Origin: Arion vulgaris
Taxonomy: Eukaryota; Mollusca; Gastropoda; Stylommatophora; Arionidae
Assembly (NCBI GenBank): GCA_020796225.1
Contig: CM036753.1
Location: 69,183,865 to 69,247,864 of the forward strand
Direction: 5' to 3'
Length of the DNA: 64,000 bases
The translations under genes and the position numbers were made by a program. The notes under the pieces were generated by a model that made no database searches, was not told the origin of the DNA, and was given only the letters and a program-made list of their open reading frames with translations. Shown in pieces: positions 1,309 to 64,000 of the stretch (the stretch's first letter is position 1; the number at the start of each line of letters is the position of its first letter).

Positions 1309-1482
1309 GAAGGTTGTAGGTTCAAATCCGGACCGACATGTGCAATTTTGTCGGAGATCACTAGCATTGTTGCTAGAGCTAGAGAGTGTGTGATTTGTGC
1401 AACGCTTACAGCAGTTGGCGTGATATTTCTTCTAAGAGGGACGGAGCCATATGGGAAAACCCGGTGCAATGAAGTAAAGTAG
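1290..1482 (+). mobile_element. SINE family A, body and 3' end
   Basis: Continues from the last 51-bp unit. A box-B-like GGTTCAAATCC (1319-1329) is followed by the family body: a variant of the GCACGAACTCCG block in reverse sense, then GAGCCATATGGG and TGCAATGAAGT at the 3' end. It matches the reverse complement of 40464-40704. It is a dead element fused to its own amplified head. Confidence 0.75.
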
Positions 1483-1510
1483 CCTTTAAACCCTTTTTAG
1501 CATTTTAATG

Positions 1511-6587: not shown

Positions 6588-6680
6588 GTCTAAAGCCGAG
6601 GAATTGACTTCATTGACCCGTGTTTTACCTGATATAGCTCGGCCCCACGACCCTCGGAAAGCAAAGCAAAGGCTTAGCCA
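6588..6680 (-). mobile_element. SINE family A, internally deleted 3' fragment
   Basis: AAAGCCGAGGAATTGACTTC and GTTTTACCTGATATAGCTCG match the 3' end of SINE A on the minus strand. The middle is missing, and a short stretch resembling the head (GCTTAGCCATATATG) follows. Confidence 0.5.
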
Positions 6681-13032: not shown

Positions 13033-16000
13033 GTATGTACTACATTCTAAATTATAATTGATGTAGCCGTTGTCTTTTATTTAAAGATATATTTCTTCAT
13101 TGTCATCTGTTGCGTTATTTACTTTAAGAAGAATTGTCTCTTTTAGTTATGAATACTAACTGACACACAACGATTAAATCTATATATCTGGCTGTCTGGT
13201 CGTATGGCTGTCCGTCCTTCGGTCCTTCCGTACTGACTGCCTCACCCGTACGTACTACTGATCATCCGTGTCTGTCTTTCTATCTTATTTGCTTGTCTGC
13301 CTGTCTATATTAACTGTATATCTGTATAACTATCTATATCTGATTTTTAATTATTTTTTAATGTCTTTCGCTGCTTTTTTTTGCCGTTAGACGTAGCAGG
13401 TTTAACTGATGATCGGTTTCCGAGATAGTGTACGCTCGGTAGCTTGATATGTTGTGGTATTGAGGAGTTTTAAAATGTATGTAATTCCATCAAGCCATCT
13501 TTTTCTTGGTCTACCCTATCTCGATCTATTTCTGCAACTAATCTTATTCTCTGTTTGTTGGCTGCATTACTGGATGTCGATTTACCTTGCCTATCAATCT
13601 ACCTGTCTGAGTGCCTGCATATTTGTAACTTTGTACCTTCTCACTAGTCTCTTTGTTTTAACTGTATCTTTGTAACTTTGTTATAACATAGTTCTATCTG
13701 TGTTTTCCATTAGCTGTTGTACTAGTTTATATTCTTGAATTAAAATAAAAAATCTGAAAATATTTAGATGGCAAGATCATCGACATAGGAGCTCAATTTC
13801 TTCATGGATGGGAGGGAAATCCTGTTTACGAAATTGCACACAAACTTGGAAGAGTTGTTTTCCCCTGATGAAGATTACTTAAATGCACACTTACAAAACA
13901 CGCCAAAGGAATTTATCACATCCAATGGAGAGAAAGTAAGATTTGTCCTGTTGTGTGTATGTAATTAAGTATATTAGCTTTATGCTTCCTTGAGTGGTGA
14001 GAGAGAAAGATAAGATTTGTCCTGTTGTGTGTTATGTAATTCTAAGTATATTAGCTTTATGCTTCCTTGAGTGGTGGAGAGAGAAGTAAGATTGTCCTGT
14101 TGTGTATGTAATTAAGTATATTAGTTTATGCTTCCTTGAGTGGTGGAGAGAAAGTAAGATTTGTCCTGTTGTTGTATGTAATTAAGTATATTAGTTTTAT
14201 GCTTCCTTGAGTGGTGGAGAGAGAAAGTAAGATTTTGTCCTGTTGTATGTATGTAACCTATAGTATATTAGCTTTATGCTTCCTTGAGTGGTGAGAGAGA
14301 AAGGGAATGATTGAATGATTGATTGATAGGACCAGCATCACATCACTTCGGAGAGTAACCATGTGTGCTCCGATCTTTCTTTCACACAGAAAGATCTCAG
14401 CGGCAGTGCATGAGCTCCGTAGTACCGGCGAGGGTCCCCGACATAATTTAGAAGATCGTAACATTACTTTGTATTTATTTATTTTCTTCAATTTTAGTAA
14501 TGAAATGTGCCCAAGCAACAGCTTTCCCGCCTTTTCTTTTGGATTTTGAACTGTTAAGATTTCTTTTATTTGCTCAACATGAACACGGGACCTACGTTCT
14601 GCCTCGCTAGCACTACGGAGTTCGTGCACTTCGGCTGCGATCTACCTGTGTAAGAAAGAGATGGGAACACACATGGTTATTCACCGAAGTGCAATGATGA
14701 TGATTAAATCAATCAGTCAAATCGATTAAATAGTTTCCGTCTGCCCAGCGTGTTCGTAGCGCGTTGGACTACGGGTGACTATCCCTCTGTGTGTGCGGGT
14801 TCAATTCCGCGGGATGGCAGAAAAAGCCACAGATTCCACAGATTTACGGTGTTCGTGGCACCGAACCGAAGGGTCACAATGTCCATGGCACCGAGCCGAA
14901 GAGCTGAAAAGCTCAAGTGTCTTCGGAGGATGAAAGAGGAAATTGGTAGTGGGGAATGTAACAGAGGAGATCATAACATTTTCCTGATTCAAAAGTATAA
15001 TTCATAGATTAAGTCCCTTGACAAAGCAAGATATAAAACCGTAAATGGTATAGGTGCTGTAAAAACAAAGATTAAAGCTGTTCGAATCATGTGTTTGCTA
15101 ATTAGTATTTTTCGAAATATCAATGTTTTCTTCCGCCCATGTGTTGTGGGAGCAGCGACTAAAAACACTGCGACCTACAGAAGTATGTCATAAGAGGCGA
15201 CTGAGGTATAGTGGCCTAGGGAAGCTACCTTAGTAAATAAAAAGCATCGCAGAAATCGGATGTGCTGGCCTCCTTGTACGTGCATAAATGACACAACGTA
15301 CAATCGCTCTTAGGCTCAGATCACATACAAATCGCAAAGATTGGTTAACAAGTGGTCGATATGTAGCGTTCGAAAAAGAAGAAGAATTTTGTTCACTGTC
15401 TATTTATTAACCAGTAACAAAGACAACAAAGATGTCATAAACTCTGATTACGTTAACTTCATAGTAAGAGCAATGGCGTGTAAAGAAAACAGATGACAAA
15501 TCTGAACATTGCAATTAATCATTATTAGTTATATACATCTGACTCTGTTCCTATCATCTCTATGTTAAAGTATGGTAGTCATTAGATCAATATAATCAAT
15601 ACAAAGATCATCATCAAGTAGCTTGTCCTTTCTGGAACTTGGCTCACGTGAGAGCTCTCCTGAAAAACTCTCTCTTCTGGACAAGTTCATCGGCGTCAGC
15701 AGCAGTCATTCTCAGATCGCATGTGACCCATCGTTTTCTAGATCTTCCTCTAATTCTTCTTCTAGGCACCATTCCTTGAAAATTTCTTCCTACGCACTCA
15801 TGTCATTTGATATATATTTTCATGAAACTTGTATAAGAAAATAGTCTAAAGCCAAAGGATTGATTTCGTTGCCCGGTTTTACCTCATGTAGCTAGGTCTC
15901 TCTACGTCAAATTGACACGCCACCTGCCGCGAGCATTGCACAAAGCACGAACTCCGTACATCCGGCAACAATCCTAGGAGTTTCTGGAAAAAATGCGCCC

Positions 16001-19000
16001 GTAAACAGAACGGTACGGTCCGGATTCGAATCCACGACCTTTGGACCACAAGGCGAAGACTTAGCCACTTCTCCACAGAGATCCCCCATGAAAATTGTGT
16101 AACGTAAAGGAATGACGGACATCTCAAAACATTTTGAACTCCACGTGTATCACGCATGAAGTATAGTAAACAAGTGTAATAATCTCGAACTGACCTGAAC
16201 AAACTGTCAGACTAATAGTTCATGACATAGTCTATTTTAGGTTTCTAGAGGTTTTAAAAACGTATATTGGAGAAATAATACTACTAGAGTATGTGTATAA
16301 CGAAAATAAGTGAGTTTGGTGAATATATAGTACATACTTGGGCAGGTTCATGTTTTGAGCAAGGTAGGTTGAGCACGCTTTCTTGATGAATACCTTGACG
16401 ACCTTTGTCAAAATGACAGAAAGCACAACACCCCCATGTCTAACCTTGATCATATATGCTCCACCTGTGATAGGGGATTGTGCTCGATGATTGGACTTTA
16501 CAATCACCTCCGCACATATCAGAGATGTGCAGCAGCACACGTCTGAGGCTGTTGTCATCATCGCTTGCGATGGAAGATTATTATGATATTAACAAATTGT
16601 TACTCTAATCCATCAAATTTGCAGATTCCTTATGAACAAGTCAGTCATGTTCTACAGTTTCTATATGATGATCTTGAGCAGCGCTTACTTGAGCCTGTAG
16701 AAGACGACGGAACAAGCATTGGTGCATCATTTGAGAAGGTTTACAAGAACTTCATAGAGTCACATTCAGAAGATAACGTAGAACTTGCTGCTGCTTTGTT
16801 TAGGCAAGAATTTAACATGTTATCTTTTACTTTATTACTTAACGCAGTTTCAACAAAAACAAATAAAGTTGACAATTGATACAACAATAACAGTGTGTTG
16901 TTAATATAACAAACAAATAAACAAATGCAAACATTACTGAAAATATGCTTGCACCTGATATAGTATACTCATAATCATTAAATAGCTTGTCCTAAGCAGA
17001 ACTTTGCCACCCAAACAGTCCTCCGGAATTTCTCCCTCTCATAGGCCAGATGTCCCGCCTCTGCAGCCGTCATGTTCAAACCATCAGTTGCATCCCGATT
17101 CCATCTTCTCCGTTGTCCTCTTCTTCTCTTTACCGTTATGCCTCCTTCCATGATGGTCTTGTCCAGTCCTTCGTGTCTTTTCATATGTCCAAAATACCTC
17201 AATTTTCTCTTTCTTATTTGTAGAGAAATAAGACAGTTTGCTTTGATTTTGAGTTCTATCTGTTTAGATCTATTTGTTCTCTTCTCTGTCCATAATATAC
17301 GAAGGACTCTTCTGTAACACATATTCAAAAGCACATATATGTATCTTCACTGCCTTATTAAATGTTAATGCTCCACACCCATACGCTGCCACTGGGAATA
17401 TGTATGCTCTTGGTATTCTTATCTTTGTTTTCCTATCAGTTCCGTTCCAATAGTGATTTTAGTTGTTTAATTTTTGGTAAAGCCATGTTTGTTCTTCTTT
17501 TAATTTCCTACGTCCCATTTCCATCTGGTGTATAGTAAAATATGTAGTATATTTCTCTTTGTTTTGATTTAAATCCGTTACAAGGAACGCTGTAGCAGGA
17601 TAATGATAAAGAAATTCAATGACGAAAAATGACTGATCAGACTTCATTTGTCTAGTTAATTGCATATGCTTTACAGGACTTTGCGAATTAACCCCAGCTT
17701 TTTAACGCTGTTTGTGAGTTTTCTAGCCATTATTATTTTCTGTAGTTTGCCATTCTTTTCAGAACGGGTGGTGTCATCTTCCTTTTGTAAAAATCTACGC
17801 GAAACAATTTGCAGCCAAATTGTCCGCAGCGTGATTCGAATTCAGAACGCCGGGGTTAATTGACCGAGTCACTATCCCCTAAACCATATACTCTACCGAT
17901 AAACAAATACAATGACGATAAATGACAGATCAGACTTCATCTGTCTAAAGTACTCTACTGGGTCTATATATGATGGGTTGACTGCATTGCACAATGTTCT
18001 ATAGATCCGTCCCTCTTGGCAGAAATCGTAAACACCTTACATGAGGATGTTGTACAAAGCACGAACTCCGTAGATCCAGAAACAATTCTAGGAATCTCGA
18101 GGAAAATGCATATGTGAACCGAATGACGCTATTCGGATTCGAACCATTAACCTATAAAACGCAATGTACACTTCTTCGCCACATAAACCCCAAGGTTTCA
18201 TCTGTAATAGAAAAGTATACTAACATTTTTTAATGGATTTCCTCTGTGTCATTGTTCTCTTGCTTTCAGTGGACACTTGTAAACAAAAATGCACTTAGAC
18301 TTCAGATTTCATGTCTAAATGATAGCGTCTTGGTGCTTAATGTCAACATTAAAAGTTCAGCTTTCAGTGGGAGAAAAGTAATGCTGAATATTGACCAAAT
18401 GTTGACTAAATGTTGACTAAATATTGATCAAAGTTGACTAAATGTTGAATAAATGTTGGTATGATTTACAAATATGTCGTGAGCTCTGTTTTTGGTCTTT
18501 TTAAAAATACAGATGGCATGCAGCCTACCACAAGATTGACAATGCCGTTGCTGATCTACGTGATATTTCTGCATGGGGTGCTTCCAAATACATTGTCTTG
18601 AAGGGAGATCGCTTTACAGATATTATTGGAGGAATGACAGGGTTATTAAAAGTTGTACTTGACCTGGTTCCTAAGGCTATTATACGACTCAATACTCCTG
18701 TAAAGGAAATTGATTGGGTGAGTCTATTATAGTTATAGGTAGATTTTGAAGCGAAACGTTCAACTTACTATTTAGTTCACCCAAATTCTGTACCAAATTG
18801 GTGCTCACCTTTCATCCCCACAATGCCCCTGCTGTCCGTATCCTTCTCCGTGAGCTGCGGATCTTCCGGGAAGACCCAGCTTCCTCACGGATCTTTTCCT
18901 CTCCTCCCTGGTGGCCTTCCGGAGGAACAAGAACCTACGCGACCTTCTGGTCCGCAGTAGGCTCCGCCCCTCTGGGGACACGTGGGGACTGTCACGTGCT

Positions 19001-22000: not shown

Positions 22001-25000
22001 CCTACGAAAGCATGGACTGACAACGTCAAGCAAACACACCTGGCACAAGATAGAAAACTAACTCTCACCACGTCACTTCAAGGCAAATGTGGTTAAGATA
22101 AGATACAAAAGAAATAAGAAGGAGACTAGCCATCGCATTTCAGAAAGTGGTTAGTATGGAGAAACTATAGACAAACTATATCACACCTCAAACAAAGTAC
22201 TACAGAAAATGGTTAGAATGGAGAAACTATATCACACCTCAAACAAAGAAACAAAAGTAAAACATCTAAAGACGTACACTTTGACAATAAAGCAGTATGA
22301 ATCCATGACTATAACACAAGTATTAAAGAACGAAGTCGAATCTTTTCAAAACAAAGTACTACAGAAAAATGGTTAGAATGTTTTGGACAGAGGTGAACAA
22401 AATCTAGACATTTTTCAAGACCTGAACATCGATGAACATTGACCCATAAACAACATTATGTCTCAAAAATTCAAATAATCTGGTCCCATTAAATGTCAGT
22501 GTTTTGGAGAGAGTTGTAATACAGAACATAATTTCTCAGAGACAAGGCAACGGTCAACAAAAACGATGGCGGCAACTAAACATTAATAAAACCTTAAACA
22601 TAACATTGGAGGAGATGGGAAAACTTACAAGACTAGCCTTTACTTGCATTCTGAAAATCGTGGGTTCGAATCCAGACCCTCGCCGTTCTGTTCACGAGTG
22701 CATTTGTTTCTAGATTCCTTGGATTGTTGCCGGGACTACGGAGTTTGTGTTTTGTGCAATACTCTGGCAGGTGACGTGACACTTATGTGGAGAGGGAACG
22801 AGCTAAATGGGGTCAAATCCAGTGGTATGAAGTCAATCCTTCGGCTTTTTAAAATTTAAAATAGAGAAGAAGACTATTTAAGAAGGACTGATGAAAGTAC
22901 CGCGACGAACCGCAAAGGACATAATATAATATATATATATATATGTTAGATATATATATATATGAAATGAAAATCGTGGCATGTCCCAAAGGACGTAGCC
23001 ATCAACCACAATAAACGAGTCGTTGATTTTCTAGGCACCACTTATACGTTCAGTAGTTTGCCATTGCTTTCTGAACGGTGAGGTCTATTTTTACCTTTCG
23101 TAAAATCCCACGGAAACGAATTTGCTTCCAAACTTGCCCACCGTGGGGTTTGAACCAGGTAAGCTTAAATGTCTAGATGTGTATATTAGAGAGCGACAGA
23201 GAAAGAAAAAGAGAATCATGAAGGTGACAGTTCAGTGCCATTATTAAGATCTCCCTCTGATATAGTTACCTCTATTCTATACCCCAGAGTTCAGCACAGA
23301 AGCAGTCTCCAAACAGCAAAGTTCTTATAATCTGTGAGAATGGAGATGAGATAGAAGCTGATCATGTGATTGTTACAATAAGCAGTGGTTGCATGCAAGC
23401 AGTCCACAAACAGATGTTTCATCCGTCTCTGCCTATACAGTTTCAGACAGCTCTAGGGCATGTTGGGTTTGGTGGCATTGGAAAGGTATATTACTCCATG
23501 TTCAAATGTTGTTATTGTTGTTTGAGTGTTAGATTTATAATAATAATAATAATTCCTCACGTACCGTTATACGTTACACAGATACGGCAAACAATTTCAC
23601 CATACCGCTCTATCCTGGGCAACTCGCTCAATCTCCTCTATGGAACTGAGACCGATATTTCTTGCCTCTCTCAGCAAAGTTCGTTTCAGGGTCTCCTTAG
23701 GTCGTCCTATCTTTCTTGAACCCTCTGCATCCTGCTTCAATGCCTGCTTTGATATTCTTTGATCATTTCTTCTCAAGGTGTGTCCACATATCTCCATCTT
23801 CTCCTTCTTATAATAGTTATATAACAGTCATTGAGTGCTAGCTTTTCTGAACTGGTAAATAATTCACAGACAATGCTTAAACAAGGACATTGTACTTGAC
23901 ATCACATGAATTTAATATTCCTGTGCTTTCTTTCTTAATATTGTACAGCGGCAGCCTGCTGACCTAGAGTCAAGAGTATCAAACACTTTACGTAGCAATT
24001 AATCTCAGTTCTTCTCACACATAAAGTGTCTTCATTTCTGATTCTCAACCAGGTTTAATTACAGAGGTCTAGCTGCATACGATTTATTGCCGTCTTCTAC
24101 AGCTGTTTCTCAAATAAGATGGTTGAAATAAATATATGTACAAGTTTTGGAATGTAAATTTGATGTCGTATCTACTGTGTAAGTGCTTGGTAGTTGAGAC
24201 TTTCAGGTAACTTCAGCCAAAAGCAATTCAGAGCCTATGTGGACTCATAGTCCATTGACTCCTATTCGACTTTCAGGTAACTTCAGCCACAAGCAATTGA
24301 TAGCCTATGTGGACATAGTAAATTGACTCCGACTCGACTTTCAGGTAACTTCAGCCAAAAGCAATTGAGAGCCTATGTGGACTCATAGTCCATTGACTCC
24401 GATTCTATCCAGTTGTTTTGTTTAGTTTCAACATTCATGTGACGAGACCATTATTAGTGGTACGTTTATGGTTGTCGAGATCTGTAAAGAACTTGTCCTG
24501 AAATGACGCTAATGAAATTACAGTTGTAAGCTCTCGTACGTTGGTGCTGAAAATTCCATGGACAGCGAAGAAAACAAATGATGAAATTTTAAATCAGGCT
24601 GCACACAAAGAAGCCTTGTCCAAAGAATAAGAATCAGACAATCAAGGTTCTTCGGGCATATAATGCGAAGAGAAGGTTTAGAACATTTGGTGACTACAGG
24701 TAAAATTCAGGGAAGGAGAGATCGTGGAAGACGGAGGAAGAAGATGGATGGTCTGACATCGTGATTCGACAAAAGATCGACGTCAGAACTGATGATCTGC
24801 ACCAAGACGATAGAGTTGTGGAGAGACATGATCGCCTACGCCGGCAGGCATGGCACTTGATTGACGCTAGTCACCATTGTCAAAGACGTTTAGAAGTCAA
24901 TATATCTCTGCAAGGAGTTCAGTCTCATTTATGTTTGTTGTCATACACTCTCTGATAAAGCAACCAACAACAAAAAAAAAACTAAAAAAACTCGTTCTTG

Positions 25001-38623: not shown

Positions 38624-38815
38624 CCCGTCTGCCCAGCATGTTCGTAGCGCGTTGGACTACGGGTGACTATCCCTGTGTGTGTGCGGGTTCAATTCCGCGG
38701 GATGGCAGAAAAAGCCACAGATTCCCCAGATTTACGGTGTTCATGGCACCGAACCGAAGGGTTACGATGTCCATGGCACCGAGCCGAAGAGCTGAAAAGC
38801 TCAAGTGCTTCTGGA
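38624..38815 (+). mobile_element. SINE family C, copy 2
   Basis: Almost the same sequence as 14738-14930, including CGTAGCGCGTTGGACTACG and GGGTTCAATTCCGCGGG. Starts about 155 bp after the oxidase stop codon and abuts the 69-bp array. Confidence 0.85.
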
Positions 38816-40065: not shown

Positions 40066-40460
40066 TGTTATATTTGTATTTATATTTTGCGTATTTTGAA
40101 GTTATTGTTGAAACTTGTTACCTTTCCATGTTAGAATGAACCACATGACAATCATTGTCATTATCATTAGTTCTCGTCCCGCCCAATGTCACATAAAGGA
40201 AAGACAAGAAATGTCCACTGCATTCAATCTTGTATCTTTCTTTCTATAGTCTCATGCATGTCTCTGAGCTCTGCTTCTATTTTGTCCTTCATTATTGACA
40301 GTTGTTTCGTCTACTATCATTATGAGATCCAGATCTGCATGCATAGTTTTGTGTTTTCTTTCTCTGCTTCTGTAGCTGTTTATTTTTTCATAGTGTGGAT
40401 CTCAATCGTCTTATACGACATGTGATGTGAAGCAAAAGAGGTTCTATACCTTTAAAGAGT
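40066..40460. other. Unassigned
   Basis: No gene or repeat recognised. Short frames have no domain signal. Confidence 0.4.
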
Positions 40461-40463
40461 TTT

Positions 40464-40704
40464 AAAGCAGAAGGATTGACTTCATTGCAGCGGGTTTTAC
40501 CCCATATGGCTTGGTCCCTCTCCACAGAAGTGACACTCCACCTGCCGAGAGTATTGCACAGAGCACGAACTCCGCAGCTACGGTAACAATCCTAGAGATC
40601 TCTGGAAAAAAATGCGCTCGTGGACATAATGGCGATGTCCGGATTCGAACCCTCGACCTTCAACTCGCAAGGCAAGGACTTAACCACTTAGTCACAGAGA
40701 CCCC
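40464..40704 (-). mobile_element. SINE family A, reference full-length copy
   Basis: 241 bp. Read on the minus strand it starts GGGGTCTCTGTGACTAAG, with box A continuing as TGGTTAAGTCCTTGCC and box B as GGGTTCGAATCCGGAC. The body then has CGGAGTTCGTGC and CAATACTCTCGGCAGG, and the 3' end TGCAATGAAGTCAATCC. Used here to interpret the 51-bp and 47-bp arrays. Confidence 0.88.
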
Positions 40705-41449: not shown

Positions 41450-42430
41450 TTCTGTCCTTCTCTGCTTTTTTGCCGCTAGGCGTAGCAGGTTTAACTGATG
41501 ATCGGTTTCGGAGATAATGCACGCTCGGTCGCTTGATATGGTGTGGTATTGTAGAGTTTTAAGATGTCTGTAACTTCATCAACCCATCTTTTTCTTGGTC
41601 TGCCCTTCCTCTTGATGATTCCATTTTCAGGTTGTACGCTCTGCAACTGGTGTATTCGGGTTCATTCTGACCAAGTGGCCAAACCATTTGAGTCTCTGTT
41701 TTTCAATAAATCTAATAGCAGGTGTTGTTCCGACTGTTCTTCTAATTTCCTCATTTCTTATATGGTCTCTTCATGTTTTATTTACTGTTTTCCTCAAGCA
41801 TCTCATTTCGTTTGTGGTAATTTTCCTTTCTTGTTCTTTTGTCAGTGCCCATATTTGGCTCTGGTAGCACAGTGTTGATATAAAGATTGCATTTATAATC
41901 TGTCTTTTAGTCTCTACTGGAATTGCTGGGTGTTTCAAAATTGGGGTAAGCTGGTATGTAATATTGTTGGCTTGCTGGATTCTAGTTTCGATCTCTCTAT
42001 CCAGTCTACTATCAGATGTGAAGATACTTCCAAGGTATTTGAATTCTCTCACCTGCTTTAGTGTTTGATCATTTATTTGAATGTTGATATCTTTATGTTC
42101 TCTGCTTATAGTCATGACTTCTGTCTTTTGAATGTTGATCTTCATGTTGTATTTGAGGCAGCTATTGTTGAGTAAGTTTATGTGTTCTTGAAGCTGTTCA
42201 ATATTATTATGGAATAAACACTGGTCGTCAGCAAAGAGCAGTTCATTTTGTTGGTCTACGTCTCATGATGTTTCGTCTATTTTGGTGATACTGTCCATGT
42301 ATATAATAAAGAGGAGAGGTGATAAAACACATCCTTGCCGTACTCCTGATGTTACTGGAAACCAATTTGTGAGTCCGGCGCTTGTTCGTATGGCCCTGTC
42401 TATATATATGGCTCTAACATATATTCAAAA
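41450..42430 (-). mobile_element. Non-LTR retrotransposon nested inside the preceding element
   Basis: Minus strand: IYIDRAIRTSAGLTNWF, VRQGCVLSPLLFIIYMDSI (RT finger/palm motif), LLFADDQCLFHNNIEQLQE (catalytic FADD near 42222-42240), YNMKINIQKTEVMTISRE, REFKYLGSIFTSDSRLDRE, CYQSQIWALTKEQERKIT, EMRCLRKTVNK. One in-frame stop upstream of FADD. The 3' end (TAGCAGGTTTAACTGATG) also survives alone at 13380-13565. Confidence 0.9.
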
Positions 42431-44165: not shown

Positions 44166-44405
44166 GGATGGTGTAACATCATGGTTCGTCAAGAGATCGA
44201 AGTCAGAACTGATTGACTGCACATTGGAAAGAGAAAGAGAGGGAGTTATGGAAAGACATGATCGTCTACGCCGGCAGTCATGTCACTTGTTTGAAGCTTG
44301 CTATCAAAATGTATTATCCCCTCTGTTACTATTGATCATGCTTTTAGTCACATATTTTTATTTTAGGGCTTTTATGGATTTATTGTCAGATTTTCTAAAG
44401 GGTTC

Positions 44406-44632
44406 AAAGGGAAAGGATTGACTTTATTGTACCAGATTTCCCCCTATGGCTCCGTTCCTGTCGACAGAGATAACATGTCATCTGCCAAGAGGATTGCACA
44501 AAGCGCGGATTCCGTAGCTCCGACAATAATCATAGCAATCTCACGAAAAAATTGCACGTGTCTCAGTCCGGATTGGAACCCACAATCTTCAGTACGACAG
44601 ACAAACGACTTAACCACTTTTCCCAGATTGTA
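44406..44632 (-). mobile_element. SINE family A copy
   Basis: GGAAAGGATTGACTTTATTG, ATGTCATCTGCCAAGAG, AAGCGCGGATTCCGTAG, AACAATAATC, CCGGATTGGAACC, GACTTAACCACTTTTCC. Confidence 0.8.
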
Positions 44633-48690: not shown

Positions 48691-49029
48691 AAAAGAAAGG
48701 ATAGCACCAGCAATCTGCTGATATTGATTTTTGTCAGAGTGCTGATTTTGCTTTTCCATATCACGCTTAGCCGCGACATAGCAACTGACACCATCTCAAG
48801 TCTTGACTTGATCTCCTTACCAGAGTTTCCATCGTTATATATGTAGGACCCAAAGTATTAAAATGGTTATGCATACTGATGGTTCCTGTGCCTTGCTGGA
48901 TAAATACACTCCTATGTCTAGCTATCAAGCATCCACCTCTACTTGTACAATAAGTAATTCCAAACTCCTTAAATCTCTGGATTGATTAAACGTCAATTTC
49001 AGTGTCATCCTCCAGTTGTAGGTCGCCAA

Positions 49030-49125
49030 CAGATTGAAAAACAATCGTATGGATCTCTCGAAAAAATCGGCCTCATTCGATAACACAACCTTCGGAACAC
49101 ATGACATATGACTTAACCATATATT
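49030..49125 (-). mobile_element. SINE family A remnant at the satellite edge
   Basis: AAACAATCGTATGGATCTCT, CGAAAAAATCGG, ATTCGATAACACAACCTTC and ATGACTTAACCAT align in order with the minus-strand SINE A (AACAATCCTAGAGATCTCTG, GGAAAAAAATGCGC, ATTCGAACC...ACCTTC, GGACTTAACCACTT), with some internal deletion. The satellite starts exactly where the head (box A) should be. Confidence 0.7.
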
Positions 49126-49676
49126 TATATGACTTAACCATATATTTATATGACTTAACCATATATTTATATGACTTAACCATATATTTATATGACTTAA
49201 CCATATATTTATATGACTTAACCATATATTTATATGACTTAACCATATATTTATATGACTTAACCATATATTTTATGACTAACCATATATTTATATGACA
49301 ACCATATATTTATTGACTTAACCATATATTTATGATGACAACCATATATTTATTGACTTAACCATATATTTATATGACTTAACCATATATTTATATGACA
49401 ACATATATTTATGTGACTTAATCATATATTTATATGACTTAACCATATATTTATATGACTTAACTATATTTATATGATTAACCATATATTTATATGACTT
49501 AACCATATATTTATATGACTTAACCATATATTTATATGACTTAACCATATATTTATATGACTTAACCATATATTTATTGACAACCATTAACCATATTTTG
49601 TTGACTTCCATATATTTATAGACTTAACCATATATTTATGATGACTTAACCATATATTTATATGACTTAACCATAT
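49107..49676 (+). repeat. 21-bp satellite, derived short form
   Basis: Units of ATGACTTAACCATATATTT plus AT, period 21, with many single-base losses in the right half. Equivalent to the 47-bp unit minus about 26 bp (the AGCCAAAGAGATCTTCATT part). The MVKSYKY frames are artefacts. Confidence 0.93.
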
Positions 49677-52600
49677 AGCCTAATGATGACTTTATCTTTC
49701 ATATATTTATGTGACTTAACCATATATTTATATGCTTAACCATATATTTATTGACTTAACCATATATTTATATGACTTAACCATATATTTATATGACTTA
49801 ACCATATATTTTATGTGACTTAACTATAATATTTATATGACTTAACCATATATTTATATGACTAACCATATAGCCAAGAGATCTTTATTTCATGTTTATA
49901 TGACTTAACCATATATTAAAGACCATTCATATATTTATATGACTTAACTTATATGAAAGAGATCTTATTTACATATATTTATGACTTAACCATATATGAT
50001 TTATTTTCATATATTTATATGAGCTTAACCATATAGCAAAGGATTTTCATTTTCATATATTTATACTGACTTAACCATATAAAAAGAGTCTTCATTTCTT
50101 ATATTTATATGACTTAACCATATATAAAGAGATCTTCATTTCATATATTTATATGACTAACCATATATAAAGAATCTTCATTTTCATATATTTATATGAC
50201 TTAACATATATGCAAAGATCTTCATTTTCATATATTTATATGACTTAACCATATAGCCAAAGAGTTCTTCATTTTCATATATTTATATGACTTAACCATA
50301 TAGCCAAAGATCTTCATTTCATATATTTATATGACTTAACCATATATCAAGAGACTTCATATTTTTCCATATATTTATATGACTTAACCTACTATAGCCA
50401 AAGATCTTATTCACCATATATTTATATGACTTAACCATATATTAGCCAAGATTTCATTCTTAACCATATATTTATATGACTTAACCATATATAAAGAATC
50501 TTATTTTCATATATTTATATGACTTATATATATTGCAAAGAGATCTTATTGATTTCATATATTTATATGACTAGCCATATAGCCAAAGAGATCTTTTTTT
50601 CATATTTATATGACTTAACCATATATTATTGCTGCCATATATTTATTACAACCATATAGCCAAAGAGATCTTTATTTTCATATATTTATATGACTTAACC
50701 ATATAATAAAGATCTTCATTTTTCATATATTTATATATGACTTAACCATATAATTAGAGTCTTCTATTTATCTATATATTATATGACTTAACCATTTATA
50801 TGCCAAAGAGATCTTCATTTTTCTATATATTTATGTGACAACCATAGTAATAGAGATCTTATTTCATATATTTATATGACTTAACCTATATAGACAAAAG
50901 TCTTCATTTCCATATATTTATATGACTTAACCATATATGCAAAAATCTTGTATTTCATATATTTATATGACTTAACCAATTTTTAGCCAAAGTCTTCATT
51001 TCATATATTATATGACTTAACCATATAAAGAGAACATTATTTTCACATATATTTATATGACTTAACCATATAGCCAAAGAGATCTTAATTTTCATATATT
51101 TATATGACTTAACCATATAGCCAAAGATATCTTTATTTTCATATATTTATATGACTTAACCATATAGCCAAAGAGATCTTTATTTTCATATATTTTAATG
51201 CTTAACCATATTAAAGATCTTCATTTTCATATATTTATATGACTTAACCATATAGCCAAAGAGATCTTTATTTTCATATATTTATATGACTTAACCTTAT
51301 ATAGCAAAGATTATATTTTCATATATTTATATGACTTAACCATATAGCAAAAGAGATCTTCATTTTCATATATTTATATGACTTAACCATATAGCCAAAG
51401 AGATCTTCATTTTCATATGTTTATATGACTTAACCATATAGCCAAAGAGATCTTTATTTTCATATATTTATATGACTTAACCATATAAGCAAAGAGATCT
51501 TCATTTCATATATTTATATGACTAACCATATAGCCAAAGAGATCTTCATTTTCATATTTATATGACTTAACCATATAGCAAAGATCTTCATTTTCATATA
51601 TTATATGGCTTAACCATATAGCCAAAGAATCTTTATTTTCATATATTTATATGACTTAACCATATAGCCAAAGAGATCTTCATTTTCATATATTTATATG
51701 AGCTTAACCATATAGCCAAAGATATCTTCATTTTCTATATTTATATGACTTAACCATATACAAAAGAATCTTCATTTTCATATATTTTATATGACTTAAC
51801 CATATAGCCAAAGGATCTTATTTTCATATATTTATATGCTTAACCATATAGCCAAAGAGATCTTCATTTTCATATATTTATATGACTTAACCATATAGCC
51901 AAAGAGATCTTTCATTTTCATATTTATATGACTTAACATATACCAAAGAGATCTTCATTTCATATATTTATATGACTTAACCATATAGCCAAAGAGATCT
52001 TCATTTCATATATTATATGACTTAACCATATAACCAAAGAGATCTTTATTTTCATATATTTATATGACTTAACCATATAATGAGATCTTCATTTTCATAT
52101 ATTTATATGACTTAACCATATAGCCAAAGATATCTTTATTTTCATATATTTATATGACTTAACCATATAGCCAAAGAGATCTTCATTTTCATATATTTAT
52201 ATGACTTAACCATATAGCCAAAGAGATCTTCATTTTCATATATTTATATGACTTAACCATATAGCCAAAGAGATCTTTATTTTCATATATTATATGACTT
52301 AACCATATACCAAAGATCTTTCATTTTCATATATTTTATGACTTAACCATATGCAAAGAGATCTTTATTTTCTATATTTATATGACTTAACCATATAGCC
52401 AAAGAGATCTTCATTTTCATATATTTATGACTTAACCATATAGCCAAAAGAGATCTTCATTTTCATATATTTATATGACTTAACCATATAGCAAAAGAGA
52501 TCTTCATTTTCATATATTTATATGACTTAACCATATAGCCAAAGAGATCTTAATTTTCATATATTTATATGACTTAACCATATAGCCAAAGAGATCTTCA

Positions 52601-55600
52601 TTTTCATATATTTATATGACTTAACCATATAGCCAAAAGATCTTTATTTCCATATATTTATATGACTTAACCTTATATAGCAGAGATCTTTATTTTCCAT
52701 ATATTTTATATGACTTAACCATATAGCCAAAAGATCTTTATTTTCATATATTTATATGACTTAACCATATATTTATATGATCTTTATTACATATATTTAT
52801 ATGACTTAACCATATATTTATAAAACTTCATATTATCTTATATATTTATTGACTTAACCATATTAATATTTTTTCATTTTATGACTTAACCATATGATTT
52901 ATATTTCCCTATATTTATATGACTTAACCATATGATTTATTGACTTAATATTTATGAACCATATATTATATGACTTAACCATATATTTATATGACTTAAC
53001 CATATATAATGACTTAACCATATATTTATTGACTTAACCATATGAAGAGATCTTCATTTCATATATTTATGACTTAACCATATATAGACTTCCATATATT
53101 ATATGACTTAACCATATAGCCAAAGAGATCTTCATTTTCATATATTTATATGACAACCATATATATATGGACTTATTCCATATATTTATATGACTTAACC
53201 ATATAGCCAGATCTTTTTCATATATTTATAACCATATATTTATATGAACTTTATTTTCATATATTTATATGACTTAACCATATATTTAAGTGATCTTCAT
53301 TTCATATATTTATATGACTTAACCATATAATAGAGATTTCATTTTCATATATTTATATGACTTAACCATATACATAGAGATCTTCATTTTCTATATTTTA
53401 TGACTTAACCATATAGTAAAGAGATCTTTATTTTCATATATTTATATGACTTAACCATATAGCCAAAGAGATCTTTATTTTCATATATTTATATGACTAA
53501 CCATATAAATGAATCTTCATTTCATATATTTATATAGCTTAACCATATACCAAAGAGATCTTCATTTTCATATATTTATATGACAACCATATAGCCAAAG
53601 AGATCTTTATTTTCATATATATTTATATGACTTAACCATATATAAAAGATCTTCATTTCATATATTTATATGACTTAACTATACAAAGATCTTCATTTCA
53701 TATATTTATATGACTAACCATATAGCCAAAGAGATCTTCATTTTCATATATTTATATGACTTAACCATATAGCCAAAGAGATCTTCATTTTCATATATTT
53801 ATATGACTTAACCATATAGAAAAAGATCTTCATTTTCATATATTTATATGACTTAACCATATAGCCAAAGAGATCTTTATTTTCATATATTTATATGACT
53901 TAACCATATAGCCAAAGAGATCTTTTTTCATATTTTATGACTTAACCATATAGTCAAAGAGATCTTCATTTTCATATATTTATATGACTTAACCATATAG
54001 CCAAAGAGATCTTCATTTTCATATATTTATATGACTTAACCATATAGCCAAAGAGATCTTCATTTCATATATTATATGCTTAACCATATAGCCAAAGAAT
54101 CTTTATTTTCATATATTTATATAAATTAACCATATAGCCAAAGAATCTTTATTTTCATATATTTATATACTTAACCATATAGCCAAAGAGATCTTCATTT
54201 TCATATATTTATATGACTTAACCATATAGCCAAAGAGATCTTCATTTTCATATATTTATATGACTTAACCATATAGCAAAAGAGATCTTCATTTTCATAT
54301 ATTTATATGACTTAACCATATAGCCAAAGAGATCTTCATTTTCATATATTTATATGACTTAACCATATAGTAAAGGATCTTTATTTTCAATATTTATATG
54401 ACTAACCAATAAAAGAATCTTTCATTTTCATATATTATTGATAACCTATAGCAAAGAGATCTTCATTTTCATATATTTATAGACTTAACCATATAACAAA
54501 GAGATCTTCATTTTCATATATTTATTGACTTAACATATAGCCAAAGAGATCTTCATTTTCATATATTTATATGAGCTTAACCATATAACAAAGATCTTCA
54601 TTTTCATATATTTATATGACTTAACCATATACCCAAAGAGATCTTCATTTTCATATATTTATATGACTTAACCATATAGCTTAAAGAGATCTTCATTTTC
54701 ATATATTATATGACTTAACCATATAGCAAAGGATCTTTATTTTCATATATTTATATGACTTAACCATATAATAAAGAGATCTTCATTTTCATATATTTAT
54801 ATGACTTAACCATATAGCCAAAGAGATCTTCATTTTCATATATTTATATGACTTAACCATATACATAAAGATCTTCATTTTCATATATTTATATGACTTA
54901 ACCATATAGCCAAAGAGATCTTATTTTCTATATTTATAGTGACTTAACACTATAGCCAAAGGATCTTTCATTTCATATATTTATATGACTAACCATATAG
55001 CCAAAGATATCTTCATTTTCATATATTTATATGACTTAACCATATAGCCAAAGAGATCTTCATTTTCATATATTTATATGACTTTAACCATATATGCAAG
55101 AGATCTATTTCATATATTTATATGACTTAACCATATAGCCAAGAGATCTTCATTTTCATATATTTATATGACTTAACCATATAATAAAGAGATCTTCATT
55201 TTCATATATTTATGTGACTTAACCATATACAAGAGATCTTCATTTCCATATATTTATATGACTTAACCATATAGCAAAGAGATCTTCATTTTCATATATT
55301 TATAGACTTAACCATATAGCCAAGAGATCTTCATTTTCATATATTTATATGACTTAACCATATAGCCAAAGAGATCTTCATTTTCATATATTTATGTACT
55401 TAACCATATAGCCAAGGATCTTTATTTTCATATATTTATATGACTTAACCATATAGCCAAAGAGATCTTTATTTTCATATATTTATATGACTTAACCATA
55501 TAGCCAAAGAGATCTTCATTTTCATATATTTATATGACTTAACCATATAGTCAAAGAGATCTTCATTTTCATATATTTATGTGACTTAACATATAGCCAA

Positions 55601-58600
55601 GAGATCTTCATTTTCATATATTTATATGACTTAACCATATAGCCAAAGAGATCTTTATTTTCATATATTTATATGACTTAACCATATAGCCAAAAAGATC
55701 CATTTCATATATTTATATGACTTAACCATATAGCCAAAGAGATCTTCATTTTCATATATTTATATGACTTAACCATATAGCCAAAGAGATCTTCATTTTC
55801 ATATATTTATATGCTAACATATGAAGAGATTCATTTCTATATTTATATGACTTAACCATATAGCCAAAGAGATCTTCATTTTCATATATTTATATGACTT
55901 AACCATATAAGCCAAAGAGATCTTCATTTTCATATATTTATATGACTTAACCATATAGCCAAAGAGATCTTCATTTTCATATATTTATATGACTTAACCA
56001 TATAGCCAAAGAGATCTTCATTTTCTATATTTATTGACTTAACCATATAGCCAAGAGATCTTATTTTCATATATTTATATGACTTAACCATATAGCCAAA
56101 GAGATCTTTATTTTCATATATTTATATGACTTAACCATATAGCATAAAGAGATCTTTATTTTCATATATTTATATGACTTAACACATAGCCAAAGAGTCT
56201 TCATTTTCATATATTTATATGACTTAACCATATAGCCAAAGAGATCTTCATTTTCATATATTTATATGACTTAACCATATACCAAAGAGATCTTTATTTC
56301 ATATATTTATATGACTTAACCCATATAGCCAAAGAGATCTTCATTTTCATATATTTATATGACTGAACCATATAGCCAAAGAGATCTTCATTTTCATATA
56401 TTTATATGACTTAACCATATAATAAGAGATCTTCATTTTCATATATTATATGACTTAACCATATAATAAGAGATCTTCATTTTCATATATTTATATGACT
56501 TAACCATATAGCCAAAGAGATCTTCATTTTCATATATTTATATGACTTAACCATATAGAAAAGATCTTCATTTCATATATTTATATGACTTAACCATATA
56601 ACCAAAGAGATCTTTATTTTCATATATTTATATGACAACCATATAACCAAAAGATCTTATTTTCATATATTTATATGACTAACCATATAGCCAAAGAGAT
56701 CTTCATTTTCATATTTATCCTATATATGCAAAAGATTTCATTTCATATATTATATGTAACCATAACAAAGAATCTTCATTTCATATATTTATTGACTTAA
56801 CCATATAGCCAAAAGATCTTTATTTTCATATATTTATATGACTTAACCATATAAGCAAGAGATCTTTCATTTTCATATATTTATATGCTTAACCATATAG
56901 CCAAAGAGATCTTCATTTTCATATATTTATATGACTTAACCATATAGTAAAGATCTTTATTTTCATATATTTATATGACTAACCATATAGCCAAAAGAGT
57001 CTTCATTTTCATATATTTATATGACTTAACCATATAGCCAAAAGATCTTTCATTTTCATATATTTATGACTTAACAATAGCATGAGATCTTTATTTTCAA
57101 TATTTATATGACTAACCATATAGCCAAAGATCTTCATTTTCATATATTTATATGACTTAACCATATAGCAAAGAATCTTTATTTTCATATATTTATATGA
57201 CTTAACCATATATAGCAAAGAGATCTTATTTTCATATATTTATATGACTTAACCATATAAGCCAAAGAGATCTTCATTTTCATATATTTTATGACTTAAC
57301 CATATGAAGAGATCTTTATTTTCTATATTTATATGACTTAACCATATAAAAGAGATCTTCATTTTCATATATTTATATGACTTAACCATATAGCCAAAGA
57401 TCTTATTTTCATATATTTATACTATAACCATATAGCCAAAAGAGATCTTCATTTTCATATATTTATATGACTTAACCATATAGCCAAAAAGATCTTCATT
57501 TTCATATATTTATATGACTTAACCATATAGCCAAAGATCTTATTTTCATATATTTATATGACTTAACCATATAGCCAAAGAGATCTTAATTTTCATATAT
57601 TTATATGACTTAACCATATAGCCAAAAGATCTTATTTTCATATATTTATATGCTTAACCACTATACCAAAAGTCTTTATTTTCTTATTATGCAACCATAT
57701 AGCCAAAGAGATCTTCTTTTTATATATTTATGATACTTAACCATATGCAAAGAATCTTCATTTTCATATATTTATGTGACTTAACCATATAGCCAAAGAG
57801 ATCTTATTTTCATATATTTATATGACTTAACCATATAGCCAAAGAGATCTTCATTTTCATATATTTATATGACTTAACCATATAGCCAAAGAGATCTTCA
57901 GTTTTCATATTTTATAGTGACTTAACCATATGCAAAGAGATCTTATTTCATATATTTATATGACTTAACCATATAGCCAAAGAGATCTTCATTTTCATAT
58001 ATTTATATGACTTAACCATATAAAAGAGATCTTCATTTCATATATTTATATGAGCTTAACCATATAGCCAAAGAGATCTTATTTTCATATATTATAGACT
58101 TATATAGCCAAGAGATCTTCATTTCTATATTTATATGACTTAACCATATGCCAAAGAGATCTTATTTTCATATATTTATCATGACTTAACCATATAGCCA
58201 AAGAGATCTTCATTTTCTATATATTTATATGACTTAACCATATAGCCAAAGAGATCTTCATTTTCATATATTTATATGACTTAACCATATAGCCAAAGAG
58301 ATCTTCATTTTCATATATTTATATGACTTAACCATATAGCCAAAGAGATCTTCATTTTCATATATTTATATGACTTACTATATAGCCAAGAGATCTTCAT
58401 TTTCATATATTTATATGACTTAACCATATAGCAAAAGAGATCTTTATTTTCATATATTTATATGACTTAACCATATAGCCAAAGAGATCTTCATTTTCAT
58501 ATATTTATGTGACTTAACCATATAGCCAAGAGATCTTCATTTTCATATATTTATAACTTAACCATATAGCCAAAGAGATCTTCATTTTCTATATTTATAT

Positions 58601-61600
58601 GACTTAACCATATAGCTAAAGATCTTCATTTTCATATATTTATATGACTTAACCATATAGCCAAAGAGATCTTTATTTTCATATATTTATATGACTTAAC
58701 CATATAGCCAAAGAGATCTTTATTTTCCTTATATTTATATACTTAACCATATAGCCAAAGATCTTCATTTCTATATATTTATTGCTTAACCATATAGCCA
58801 AAAGATCTTCATTTTCATATATTTATTGACTTAACCATATAGCCAAAGATCTTCATTTTCATATATTTATATGACTTAACCATATAGCCAAAAGATCTTC
58901 ATTTCATATATTTATATGACTTAACCTATAGCCAAGAGATCTTCATTTTCATATATTTATATGACTTAACCATATAGCCAAAGAGATCTTCATTTTCATA
59001 TATTTATATGACTTAACCATATAGCCAAAGAGATCTTCATTTTCATATATTTATATGACTTAACCATATAGCCAAAGAGATCTTCATTTTCATATATTTA
59101 TATGACTTAACCATATAGCAAAAGAGATCTTCATTTTCATATATTTATATGACTTAACCATATAGCCAAAGATCTTCTTTCATATATTTATATGACTTAA
59201 CCATATAGCCAAAGATATCTTCATTTTCATATATTTATATGACTTAACCATATAGCAAAAGAGATCTTCATTTTCATATATTTATATGACTTAACCATAT
59301 ATAAAGAGATCTTCATTTTCATATATTTATATGACTTAACCATATAGAAAGAATCTTCATTTTCATATATTTTATGACTTAACTCATATACCAAAGATCT
59401 TCATTTCTATATTTATATGACTTAACCATATAGCCAAAGATCTTCATTTTCATATGTTGTGATTAACCATATAGCCAAAGAGATCTTCATTTTCATATAT
59501 TTATATGACTTAACCATATAGCCAAAGATATCTTCATTTTCATATATTTATATGACTTAACCATATAGCCAAAGAGATCTTCATTTTCATATATTTATAT
59601 GACTTCAACCATATATAGCCAAAGAGATCTTCATTTTCATATATTTATATGACTTAACCATATACAAAAGAGATCTTCATTTTCATATATTTATATGACT
59701 TAACCATATAGCCAAAGAGATCTTCATTTTCATATATTTATGACTTAACCATATAGCCAAAGAGATCTTCATTTTCATATATTTATATGACTAACCATAT
59801 AGCAAAGATCATTTTCATATATTTATATGACAACCATATACCAAAGATCTTCATTTTCATATATTATATGACTTAACCATATAATAAAGAGATCTTCATT
59901 TTCATATATTTATGACTTAACCATATAGCCAAAGAGATCTTCATTTTCATATATTTATATGACTTAACCATTATAAAAGATCTTCATTTCATATATTTAT
60001 ATGACTTAACCATATAGTAAAGATCTTCATTTTCATATTTTATGTGACTTAACTCTATAGCCAAAGAGATCTTCATTTTCACTATATTTATTGACTTAAC
60101 CATATAGCCAAAGAGATCTTCATTTTCATATATTTATATGACTTAACCATATAGCAAAAGAGATCTTCATTTTCATATATTTATATGACTTAACCATATA
60201 GCCAAAGAGATCTTCATTTTCATATATTTATATGACTTAACCATATAGCCAAAGAGATCTTCATTTTCATATATTTATATACAACCATATACAAGAGATC
60301 TTCATTTTCATATATTTATATAACTAACCATATAGCCAAAGAGATCTTCATTTCATATATTTATATGACTTAACCATTAGCCAAGAGATCTTATTTTCAT
60401 ATATTTATTGACTTAACCATATAGCCAAAGGATCTTCATTTTCATATATTTATATGACTTAACCATATAGCCAAAGAGATCTTTATTTTCATATATTTAT
60501 ATGACTTAACCATATAGCCAAAGAGATCTTAATTTTCATATATTTATATGACTTAACCATATAGCCAAAGAGATCTTCATTTTCATATATTTATATGACT
60601 TAACCATATAGCCAAAGATCTTCATTTCATATATTTATATGACTTAACCATATAGCCAAAGAGATCTTTATTTTCATATATTTATATGACTTAACCATAT
60701 AGCCAAAGAGATCTTCATTTTCATATATTTATATGACTTAACCATATAGCCAAAGAGATCTTCATTTTCATATATTTATGAACTTAACCATATAGAAAGA
60801 GATCTTCATTTTCATATATTTATATGACTAACCATATAGCCAAAGAGATCTTCATTTTCATATATTTATATGACTTAACCATATAGCCAAAGAGATCTTC
60901 ATTTTCATATATTTATATGACTTAACCATATAGCAAAGAATCTTCATTTTCATATATTTATATGACTTAACCATATACCCAAAGAGATCTTCATTTTCAT
61001 ATATTTATATGACTTAACCATATAGCCAAAGAGATCTTCATTTCTATATTTATAGATTTAACCATATAGCCAAAGAGATCTTCATTTTCATATATTTATA
61101 TGACTTAACCATATAGCCAAAGATATCTTCATTTTCATATATTTATATGACTTAACCATATAGCCAAAGAGATCTTCATTTTCATATATTTATATGACTT
61201 AACCATATAAAGAGATCTTCATTTTCATATATTTATATGACTTAACCATATAGCCAAAGAGATCTTCATTTTCATATATTTATATGACTTAACCATATAG
61301 CCAAAGAGATCTTCATTTTCATATATTTATATGACTTAACCATATAGCCAAAAAGATCTTCATTTTCATATATTTATATGACTTAACCATATAGCCAAAG
61401 AGATCTTCATTTTCATATATTTATATGACTTAACCATATAGCCAAAGAGATCTTCATTTTCATATATTTATATGACTTAACCATATAGCCAAAGAGATCT
61501 TCATTTTCAATATTTATATGACTTAACCATATATCAAAGAGATCTTCATTTCATATATTTATATGACTTAACCATATAGCCAAAGAGATCTTCATTTTCA

Positions 61601-62892
61601 TATATTTATATAACTTAACCATATAGCCAAAGAGATCTTCATTTTCATATATTTATATGACTTAACCATATAGCAAAAGAGATCTTCATTTTCATATATT
61701 TATATGACTTAACCATATAGCCAAAGAGATCTTCATTTTCATATATTTATATGACTTAACCATATAGCCAAAGAGATCTTCATTTTCATATATTTATATG
61801 ACTTAACCATATAATAAGAGATCTTCATTTCATATATTTATATGACTTAACCATATATGCCAAAGAGATCTTCATTTTCATATATTTATGTACTTAACCA
61901 TATGCCAAAGGATCTTCATTTTCATATATTTATATGACTTAACCATATAGCCAAAGAGATCTTCATTTTCATATATTTATTGACTAACCATATACCAAGA
62001 GATCTTCATTTTCTATATTTATATGACTAACCATATAGAAAGAGATCTTCATTTTCATATATTTATATGACTTAACCATATAGCAAAAGAGATCTTCATT
62101 TTCATATATTTATATGACAACCATATAAAAGAGATCTTCATTTTCATATATTTATATGACTTAACCATATAGCAAAAGAGATCTTCATTTTCATATATTT
62201 ATATGACTTAACCATATAGCCAAAGAGATCTTCATTTTCATATATTTATATGACTTAACCATATAGCCAAAGATCTTCCATTTTCTATATTTATATGACT
62301 TAACATATAGCCAAAGAGATCTTATTTTCATATATTTATTGACTTAACCATATAGCCAAAGAGATCTTCATTTTCATATATTTATATGACTTAACCATAT
62401 AGCCAAAGAGATCTTCATTTTCATATATTTATATGACTTAACCATATAAAAGAGATCTTCATTTTCATATATTTATATGACAACCATATAGCCAAAGAAT
62501 CTTCATTTCATATATTTATTGACTTAACCATATACAAAGATATCTTCATTTTCATATATTTATGTACTTAACCATATAGCCAAAGAGATCTTTATTTTCA
62601 TATATTTATATGACTTACATATAGTAAAGAGATCTTCATTTTCATATATTTATATGACTTAACCATATAGCCAAAGAGATCTTAATTTTCATATATTTAT
62701 ATGACTTAACCATATAGCCAAAGAGATCTTCATTTTCATATATTTATATGACTTAACCATATAGCCAAAGAGATCTTCATTTTCATATATTTATATGACT
62801 TAACCATATAGACAAAGAGATCTTCATTTTCATATATTTATATGACTTAACCATATAGACAAAGAGATCTTCATTTTCATATATTTATATGA
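49677..62892 (+). repeat. 47-bp satellite array, about 280 units, derived from the SINE-A head
   Basis: Consensus unit in overlapping parts: TTCATATATTTATATGACTT, GACTTAACCATATAGCCAAA, GCCAAAGAGATCTTCATTTT; period 47. On the minus strand the unit reads ATCTCTTTGGCTATATGG then TTAAGTC, matching 21 of 25 bases of the SINE-A head (GTCTCTGTGGCTAAGTGG, TTAAGTC). Each unit therefore carries a degenerate box A plus about 20 bp of AT-rich flank. Most units have an AGATCT (BglII) site; some read GATATC. Units are more uniform from about 58 kb to 62.9 kb and most ragged at 49.7-51 kb and near 53 kb. No gene. Confidence 0.93.
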
Positions 62893-64000
62893 TCTTGAAC
62901 AGATATTTTTAATCATAGCTTTACCCAAGAAAGAATCACTAATAAAACAATTTAATATATTTCATATTTTTATTTAACACTTATTAGCAAAGAGATCATT
63001 CATTTCATATATTTATATGAAACTTAGACCATGATATTTGCTTCAAATATAGAAACCATATTGATCATTTCATTTTAACTCTATATAATGGTCTATATTG
63101 AGCTTACAAGTCCATATGACCACAAACTAGCAGCCTATTTATCTTACTATGAATTTACATATTTATTTCATTAATTGGAGACCTACTAGAAAGAGATCTT
63201 CATTTTATATATTTATAGATAACAACCAAATTTTCTAGTTATAGCCAAAGATATCTTCATTTCATATATTTATATGTTTAAATTCAGACTCTTTATTTAA
63301 GTTAAACTAACAGAGATCTTCTATTTTCATATATTTATATGCTTAACCATATAGTAAAGAGATCTTCATTTCATATTATTGACCTATAGAAGCGATTTAT
63401 ATTTGCCATATACTCAAGAAGATCTATTTCTCATATTTTTATTTACTATGAAGCTTTTCCTTTTACATATAACCTATACGAAGAGATCTTACTGTTCTTT
63501 TATGACAGTATTGCAAGTACTTATTGACTTAACCATATAGCAGAAGATCTCATTTTATAATTTATGTGACAACCATATAGTAGAGATCTTCATTTTCATA
63601 TATTACTATGACTTAACCATATAGTCACAAGAATCTTCATTTCATATATTTATATACTTAGAACCTGCCTAGATTAAAGATCTTCATTTTTCATATATTT
63701 ATATGACTTAACATATAGCCAAAGATATCTTCATTTCATATATTTATGATGACAACCTTAGCTTAAAGATATCTTCATTTCATATATTTATAGATAACCT
63801 TTAGCTCTAAAGAGATTCTATTTTCCATATATTTTATATGACTTCATATAGCCAAAGAGATCTTCATTTTCATATATTTATATGACTGTAACATATAGCC
63901 AAAGGAATCTTCATTTTCATATATTATGACTAACCTTAGCCAAAGATTCTTATTTCATATATTTATATGAGCCCTTATAGACTCAAAGATATCTTCTTTA
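62893..64000 (+). repeat. Diverged edge of the 47-bp satellite
   Basis: Recognisable pieces (AGATCTTCATTT, CATATATTTATATG, ACTTAACCATATAG) are interspersed with unrelated or strongly mutated AT-rich sequence, for instance 62895-62990 and 63030-63180. More regular units return after about 63580. The window ends inside the satellite. Confidence 0.8.

Follow-up and report, generated by a model that had tools for sequence, protein, structure and literature searches.

Probable descent of a 47-bp satellite in Arion vulgaris from the 5' head of a tRNA-derived SINE, an apparently preferred seed of tandem arrays

Introduction

The question of how satellites originate is an old one, and it is raised afresh by a 64,000-nucleotide stretch of the Arion vulgaris genome (the window hereafter; assembly GCA_020796225.1, contig CM036753.1, called C1 below, C1:69183865-69247864). 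At 69.2 Mb on this 114.2-Mb contig, a long array of 47-bp units adjoins, head-on, a degraded copy of SINE-A, a family of short interspersed nuclear elements (SINEs) with a head resembling transfer RNA (tRNA). A sequence-only reading of the window had proposed that the array is the amplified 5' end of such an element. Did the satellite grow out of the SINE, and is that end of the element special? The comparisons described here, which for the question of descent are comparisons of sequence, make it highly probable that the 47-bp satellite derives from a SINE-A head and that arrays are preferentially seeded at the 5' end of the element. One genome here displays many stages of the process, ranging from a pair of heads to an array of about 300 units, and in these arrays the junctions and some of the target-site duplications can still be read. 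The genome searched comprises 1.52 Gb on 3227 contigs (contigs are given below as C numbers and loci as L numbers); array calls and copy numbers in the window are from Tandem Repeats Finder.

Results

The satellite was found where the sequence-only reading had placed it and has at least the 14 kb estimated there, with arrays at 49106-50035 and 50003-62892 and a whole extent from 49106 to about C1:69249230. The 47-bp array (50003-62892) is called with 284 copies (87% matches, 8% indels). The features at this end of the window are the following.

49030-49104, minus strand: degraded SINE-A copy; its head passes into the array without loss of register, with the box A to box B spacing kept
49106-50035, minus strand: zone of 21-bp sub-units adjoining the SINE remnant; the sub-unit resembles a 47-bp unit from which the 26 bp separating two TATATG words are missing
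50003-62892, minus strand: 47-bp satellite, unit on the minus strand GATCTCTTTGGCTATATGGTTAAGTCATATAAATATATGAAAATGAA, the first ~26-32 bp of which are attributed to the SINE-A head
62893-64000, minus strand: degenerate continuation of the satellite, extending ~1.4 kb past the window end

Degenerate 47-bp copies are called at 63521-63970, and past C1:69249230 (L011:3240-4400, C1:69249240 on) the satellite fades, by eye, into homopolymer-rich low-order sequence that is apparently poor assembly. The 21-bp zone, which occupies the first ~0.9 kb beside the SINE, looks like a 47-bp unit that has lost the sequence between its TATATG words, because the SINE likeness covers the part missing from the 21-bp unit. 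These sub-units also lack TGGC, so that the 18-base word described earlier as present in each unit is missing from some of them. In the core of the 47-bp unit (positions 14-39) deletions reach 12% and substitutions at most 4%, in a profile that takes in the 21-bp zone. As deletions exceed substitutions there, the apparent divergence inside the array is probably inflated by long-read error. A genome search for the satellite, of a kind that skips very common words, found it only at this locus (two first-look candidates, one scored).

A genome search with SINE-A returned 8257 first-look candidates, of which 40 were scored (query copy included), and a consensus was built from the best 30 of these 40 loci, again with the query copy among them. 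This consensus carries both a box A and a box B word, as expected of a tRNA-derived SINE; the boxes were identified against what we take to be their consensus. The family also combines high copy number with target-site duplications, which were present at two of the five array loci checked. No tRNA was detected in the window by ARAGORN or Rfam. Three of the window copies are the following.

40451-40704, minus strand: SINE-A copy, 89% to the consensus, head intact
15847-16086, minus strand: SINE-A copy without a head array
44396-44618, minus strand: SINE-A copy of an older variant, with the top score against the remnant among the copies compared

The 47-bp unit matches the head of the copy at 40464-40704 at 20 of 24 positions without gaps, which none of 1000 dinucleotide shuffles equalled, and this bears out the match that the sequence-only reading had drawn. 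The window copy at 16085 gave the same outcome (0/1000 shuffles as good), while the one at 44627 was reached by 20 of 1000 shuffles on the head and by 161 of 1000 over the full length. Comparison with a genome-wide consensus had been named in that reading as a check, and it came out in favour of descent: 18 of 22 bases of the consensus head agree with the unit, a score equalled by 4 of 5000 shuffles.

The strongest test of the SINE link is the register of the remnant, since the array letters are not used in it. The remnant tests were made on 48850-49104 (minus strand), from which every array letter is absent. None of 1322 control stretches from both strands of the window equalled its score against six SINE copies, and against the single copies this score was reached by 0, 4, 0, 0, 19, and 70 of 500 shuffles. 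Placed on the consensus without gaps, the remnant fits best at offset 35 (23/36; 1/5000 letter shuffles as good anywhere), and the offset predicted from box A in the terminal unit of the array is exactly 35. The array thus starts where the remnant would reach its own head, as had been proposed, and the consensus match together with this register supports the reading of the satellite as an amplified SINE 5' end. The box B of the remnant is degraded, and so is the run of the terminal unit into the SINE. A chance AT-rich match was considered and judged unlikely in view of the register test and the shuffle counts.

The clearest local case of head duplication is a second array at the other end of the window.

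1-1310, plus strand: 51-bp array, its unit joining ~44 bp of SINE-A head to ~7-9 bp of flank, beginning 278 bp left of the window (C1:69183587 onward)
1265-1496, plus strand: SINE-A copy forming the terminus of the 51-bp array, with box B once only, in this last unit

The 51-bp unit corresponds to the first ~44 bases of the very SINE-A copy in which the array ends. The remaining ~7-9 bp of the unit agree with the flanking DNA at the far edge; resemblance to the array begins there 9 bp ahead of the run of G in the SINE. The duplication therefore took flanking DNA, as had been guessed for the 47-bp unit.

Intermediate arrays at other SINE-A loci, which the sequence-only reading had predicted, were found in a range of sizes. 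The locus L029 has 5.8 tandem 45-bp heads, L063 has a 28-bp array and L064 a 23-bp array, the last two lying with their SINEs inside target-site duplications (12/12 and 14/15, respectively). A 45-bp array of ~96 units (L067/L068) runs from the SINE's own 5' end to a full SINE body (88.5% to the consensus), its middle being known only through the listed pattern matches. Another 45-bp array at C1:21.98 Mb (L065, L066, L069, L070) measures at least 4.1 kb, with 0.8 kb unread and the SINE-body side not reached. Besides the array, the terminal SINE at L063:418-684 has a 15-bp duplication of its box-B stretch.

A search for pairs of exact box-A 16-mers separated by 15-45 bases gave 1014 matches genome-wide, many of them from a few long arrays, and the reversed pattern gave none; the matches listed belong to four arrays on C1. 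A stricter pattern also requires a box-B word after the two head words and should count each array about once. It occurs at 45 loci on 20 contigs (reversed control 0), a lower bound in that the exact pattern misses L063, L064, L029, and both window arrays. The period of the dimer is 45 bp at 26 of these loci, 44 bp at four, 28 bp at three, and 38 bp at three, while periods of 21, 24, 39, 40, 43, 49, 50, 52, and 56 bp occur once each. The junction TCGA[AG]|G[GA]TCT is found at 31 of the 45 loci and other junctions at 14. We also noticed, by eye, that both units carry the same unusual variants at seven of the 45 loci (C3:60.2, C5:19.8, C8:17.4, C10:49.5, C21:27.3, C22:11.3, and C24:15.9 Mb), which is as expected if the duplication came after local mutation.

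The same kind of search with one exact 16-mer from the body and one from box B found no dimer of either in the genome, against the 1014 matches for box A. Of the 40 best-copy loci, 14 hold the exact box-A word, 22 the body word, and 19 the box-B word; in 104 kb of other loci the three words stand at 1, 3, and 1 places, and in the window at none. Scarcity of the control words therefore does not explain the absence of their dimers. Within this set of three words the effect is specific to position. The 5' half of the SINE-A head thus appears to be a hot spot of tandem amplification, and the contrast suggests a trigger tied to position. Events in the opposite order are seen at L021:1301-1981, where a young SINE-A copy lies within a 50-54-bp array.

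Several observations weigh against descent of the satellite from a SINE head or against a preference for the 5' end. The match of the 47-bp unit to the SINE is short and AT-rich, and the other three of the six window copies gave no signal, their head scores being reached by 254, 422, and 806 of 1000 shuffles. The far edge of the 47-bp array cannot be read because the sequence there is poor, and a captured flank is not visible for this array. A head array is present in only one (L029) of the 40 best SINE-A copies, the query being among the 40, and no target-site duplication was found at that locus by the test used; at the ~96-unit locus it is weak (11/13), and at the 51-bp array none was better than 12 cross-paired controls, 5 of which gave a short word. 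The figure of 1014 counts matches, not loci, with about the first hundred listed and most of these from one array, and box-A words presumably occur in true tRNA genes as well. At several of the 45 two-head loci inspection by eye shows differences between the units, and pairs of neighbouring insertions could account for some of the long-period cases. The position controls are two words, matched exactly. Arrays can also form elsewhere in old, diverged SINE copies, as at L043:1985-2282, where an old copy holds a 31-bp array of 3.7 units beginning in box B, and at L041:1743-2301 a young SINE-A copy has directly at its 5' end a 39-bp array that seems unrelated to it.

The genome is, moreover, rich in minisatellites. 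With thresholds of period ≥15, ≥2.5 copies, and ≥100 bp, 42 arrays were called in 178 kb (the window plus L009, L011-L014, and L055-L062), or 39 distinct ones in ~176 kb without overlaps after merging three split or overlapping calls. Two of the 39 are SINE-derived, by itself not a clear excess and a further point against a preference. A 69-bp array at L009:3412-4297 appeared SINE-like at first look, but it aligns only with many gaps and was not counted.

Discussion

We propose that a tandem duplication in a SINE-A copy, covering its 5' half with box A and without box B, gave rise to the 47-bp satellite. Some 17-21 bp of flank would probably have been included in the first duplication, and slippage or unequal exchange may then have brought the array to about 300 units. 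The first ~50 bp of SINE-A would be a preferred seed and this satellite one of many products. We infer that the first duplication arises mostly through short homology, by joining of GRTC near base 4 to GGTC near base 49, which yields 45 bp, and that other joins yield 21-56 bp. In the arrays whose SINE side was read, the last unit has remained continuous with the SINE. Most first duplications would take place in DNA, at or after insertion and at the 5' junction, a point on which we find the balance about even, and later expansion could be the ordinary behaviour of a minisatellite-rich genome. A broader proposal can be put forward tentatively, at somewhat less than even confidence: the 5' end of the SINE may serve as a satellite nursery, where events linked to retrotransposition or to the start of transcription by RNA polymerase III (pol III) repeatedly duplicate the box-A half-head, so that a mobile element would routinely seed satellites at its own promoter.

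The best surviving alternative, although we consider it rather unlikely, places the first step in retrotransposition: reverse transcriptase would jump back at the 5' end of the RNA and recopy the head, the element would land multi-headed, and slippage would extend the array. Arrays inside target-site duplications at L063 and L064, the start of arrays at the SINE's own 5' end, and the fact that, of three words tested, only that of the 5' half gave dimers are all consistent with such a step, as is the 28-bp junction shared by C3:70814906 and C5:59844867. However, the 51-bp unit contains flanking DNA, and the unusual variants common to both units at the seven loci argue for local duplication, though a shared source RNA could explain them. 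Identical junctions within an array would in any case require later expansion at the DNA level.

It is improbable, in our judgement, that a multi-head SINE subfamily was spread by retrotransposition, most loci then sharing one ancestral duplication. The uniformity of the two-head loci is what such a subfamily would leave (26 of 45 dimers exactly 45 bp, 31 with one junction type), but short homology explains this recurrence. The 14 cases with other junctions and the spread of periods from 21 to 56 bp also argue against a single ancestor, as does the agreement, by eye, of units on unusual variants within seven loci.

We assign still less probability to an older, unrelated satellite at whose edge SINE-A happened to insert, with the likeness to box A arising by chance. 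The SINE inside an array at L021, the unrelated-looking array next to a SINE 5' end at L041, and the abundance of minisatellites are in favour of such an origin, but the exact register of remnant and terminal unit, the 4 in 5000 shuffles as good, and the clear head arrays at other loci speak for descent. Least of all do we expect the satellite to be a pol III unit driven by box A, producing small RNAs or influencing chromatin, a role of the kind that the sequence-only reading had suggested: a box-A-like word does occur in most units, but in the unit profile this box is altered, at an A that we take to be normally conserved in box A, box B is absent from the unit and degraded in the remnant, and the two boxes are thus not found at a working distance, which makes transcription of the array unlikely as judged from its letters.

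SINE-derived satellites are already known, and the box-A-only form described here is a variant of the squamate kind. According to the portion of PMC10702118 consulted, squamate SINE-derived satellites (sSat) are tandem arrays of part of a tRNA-headed SINE, with a few to ~1000 units and mostly independent origins, and in most of the arrays the terminal unit is longer and extends to the end of the SINE. Other marks of the class are greater uniformity of units in longer arrays and a subtelomeric preference. The SINE-A arrays share two of the traits of the class. A unit homologous to part of a SINE of the same genome is seen directly in the 51-, 45-, 28-, and 23-bp arrays and, for the 47-bp array, through the 18/22 match and the register; a longer terminal unit continuing into the SINE is seen at window 1265-1496, L029, L063, L064, and L068. 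The same portion of that source describes some gecko units from the 5' part (~150 nt, ~30 nt of it of unknown origin) or from the tRNA part, and a main snake unit of 67 nt (positions 42-108) with box B and part of the body. By comparison, the 5'-end units of SINE-A read here are 23-51 bp long and hold box A without box B, and exact dimers of the body and box-B words were not found.

Among molluscs, PcH-sat of the limpet Patella caerulea makes up ~10% of the genome and derives from Nin-SINE, as set out in the part of PMC11121367 consulted. It comes from a tRNA-headed SINE, as proposed for the satellite studied here, but its 179-bp unit is longer and represents the 3' part, without box A or B. 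The tandem repeats Hy/polIII, Rana/polIII, OAX, and PolIII/TAN also have tRNA-like parts, in longer units (~200-360 nt where given), and their link to SINEs is judged inconclusive in the consulted portion of PMC10702118; by contrast, a SINE-A copy stands at the edge of every head array here whose SINE side was read. Small duplications inside SINEs are known from the literature seen in part, whereas in SINE-A they arise repeatedly at the same end and grow to tens or hundreds of units. Further satellites derived from transposable elements are reviewed in PMC9659126 and PMC12692304, likewise consulted in part. A partial literature survey returned no description of a short box-A half-head as a recurrent seed with none for box B or the body.

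Other features of the window

The remaining SINE-A sequences of the window are as follows.

22637-22860, plus strand: SINE-A copy, head not matched
17972-18182, minus strand: diverged SINE-A copy
37848-37964, minus strand: SINE-A fragment
6591-6646, minus strand: SINE-A fragment

A possible second repeat family is a 30-bp dimer, TTACGATGTCCATGGCACCGAACCGAAGGG or a close variant of it, which is found at the separate loci L057:144-201, L058:2603-2660, L058:3063-3119, and window 38732-38789. The window further contains a reverse transcriptase fragment (PF00078) at 41771-42262 and an amine oxidase-like stretch (PF01593) at 23261-23719.

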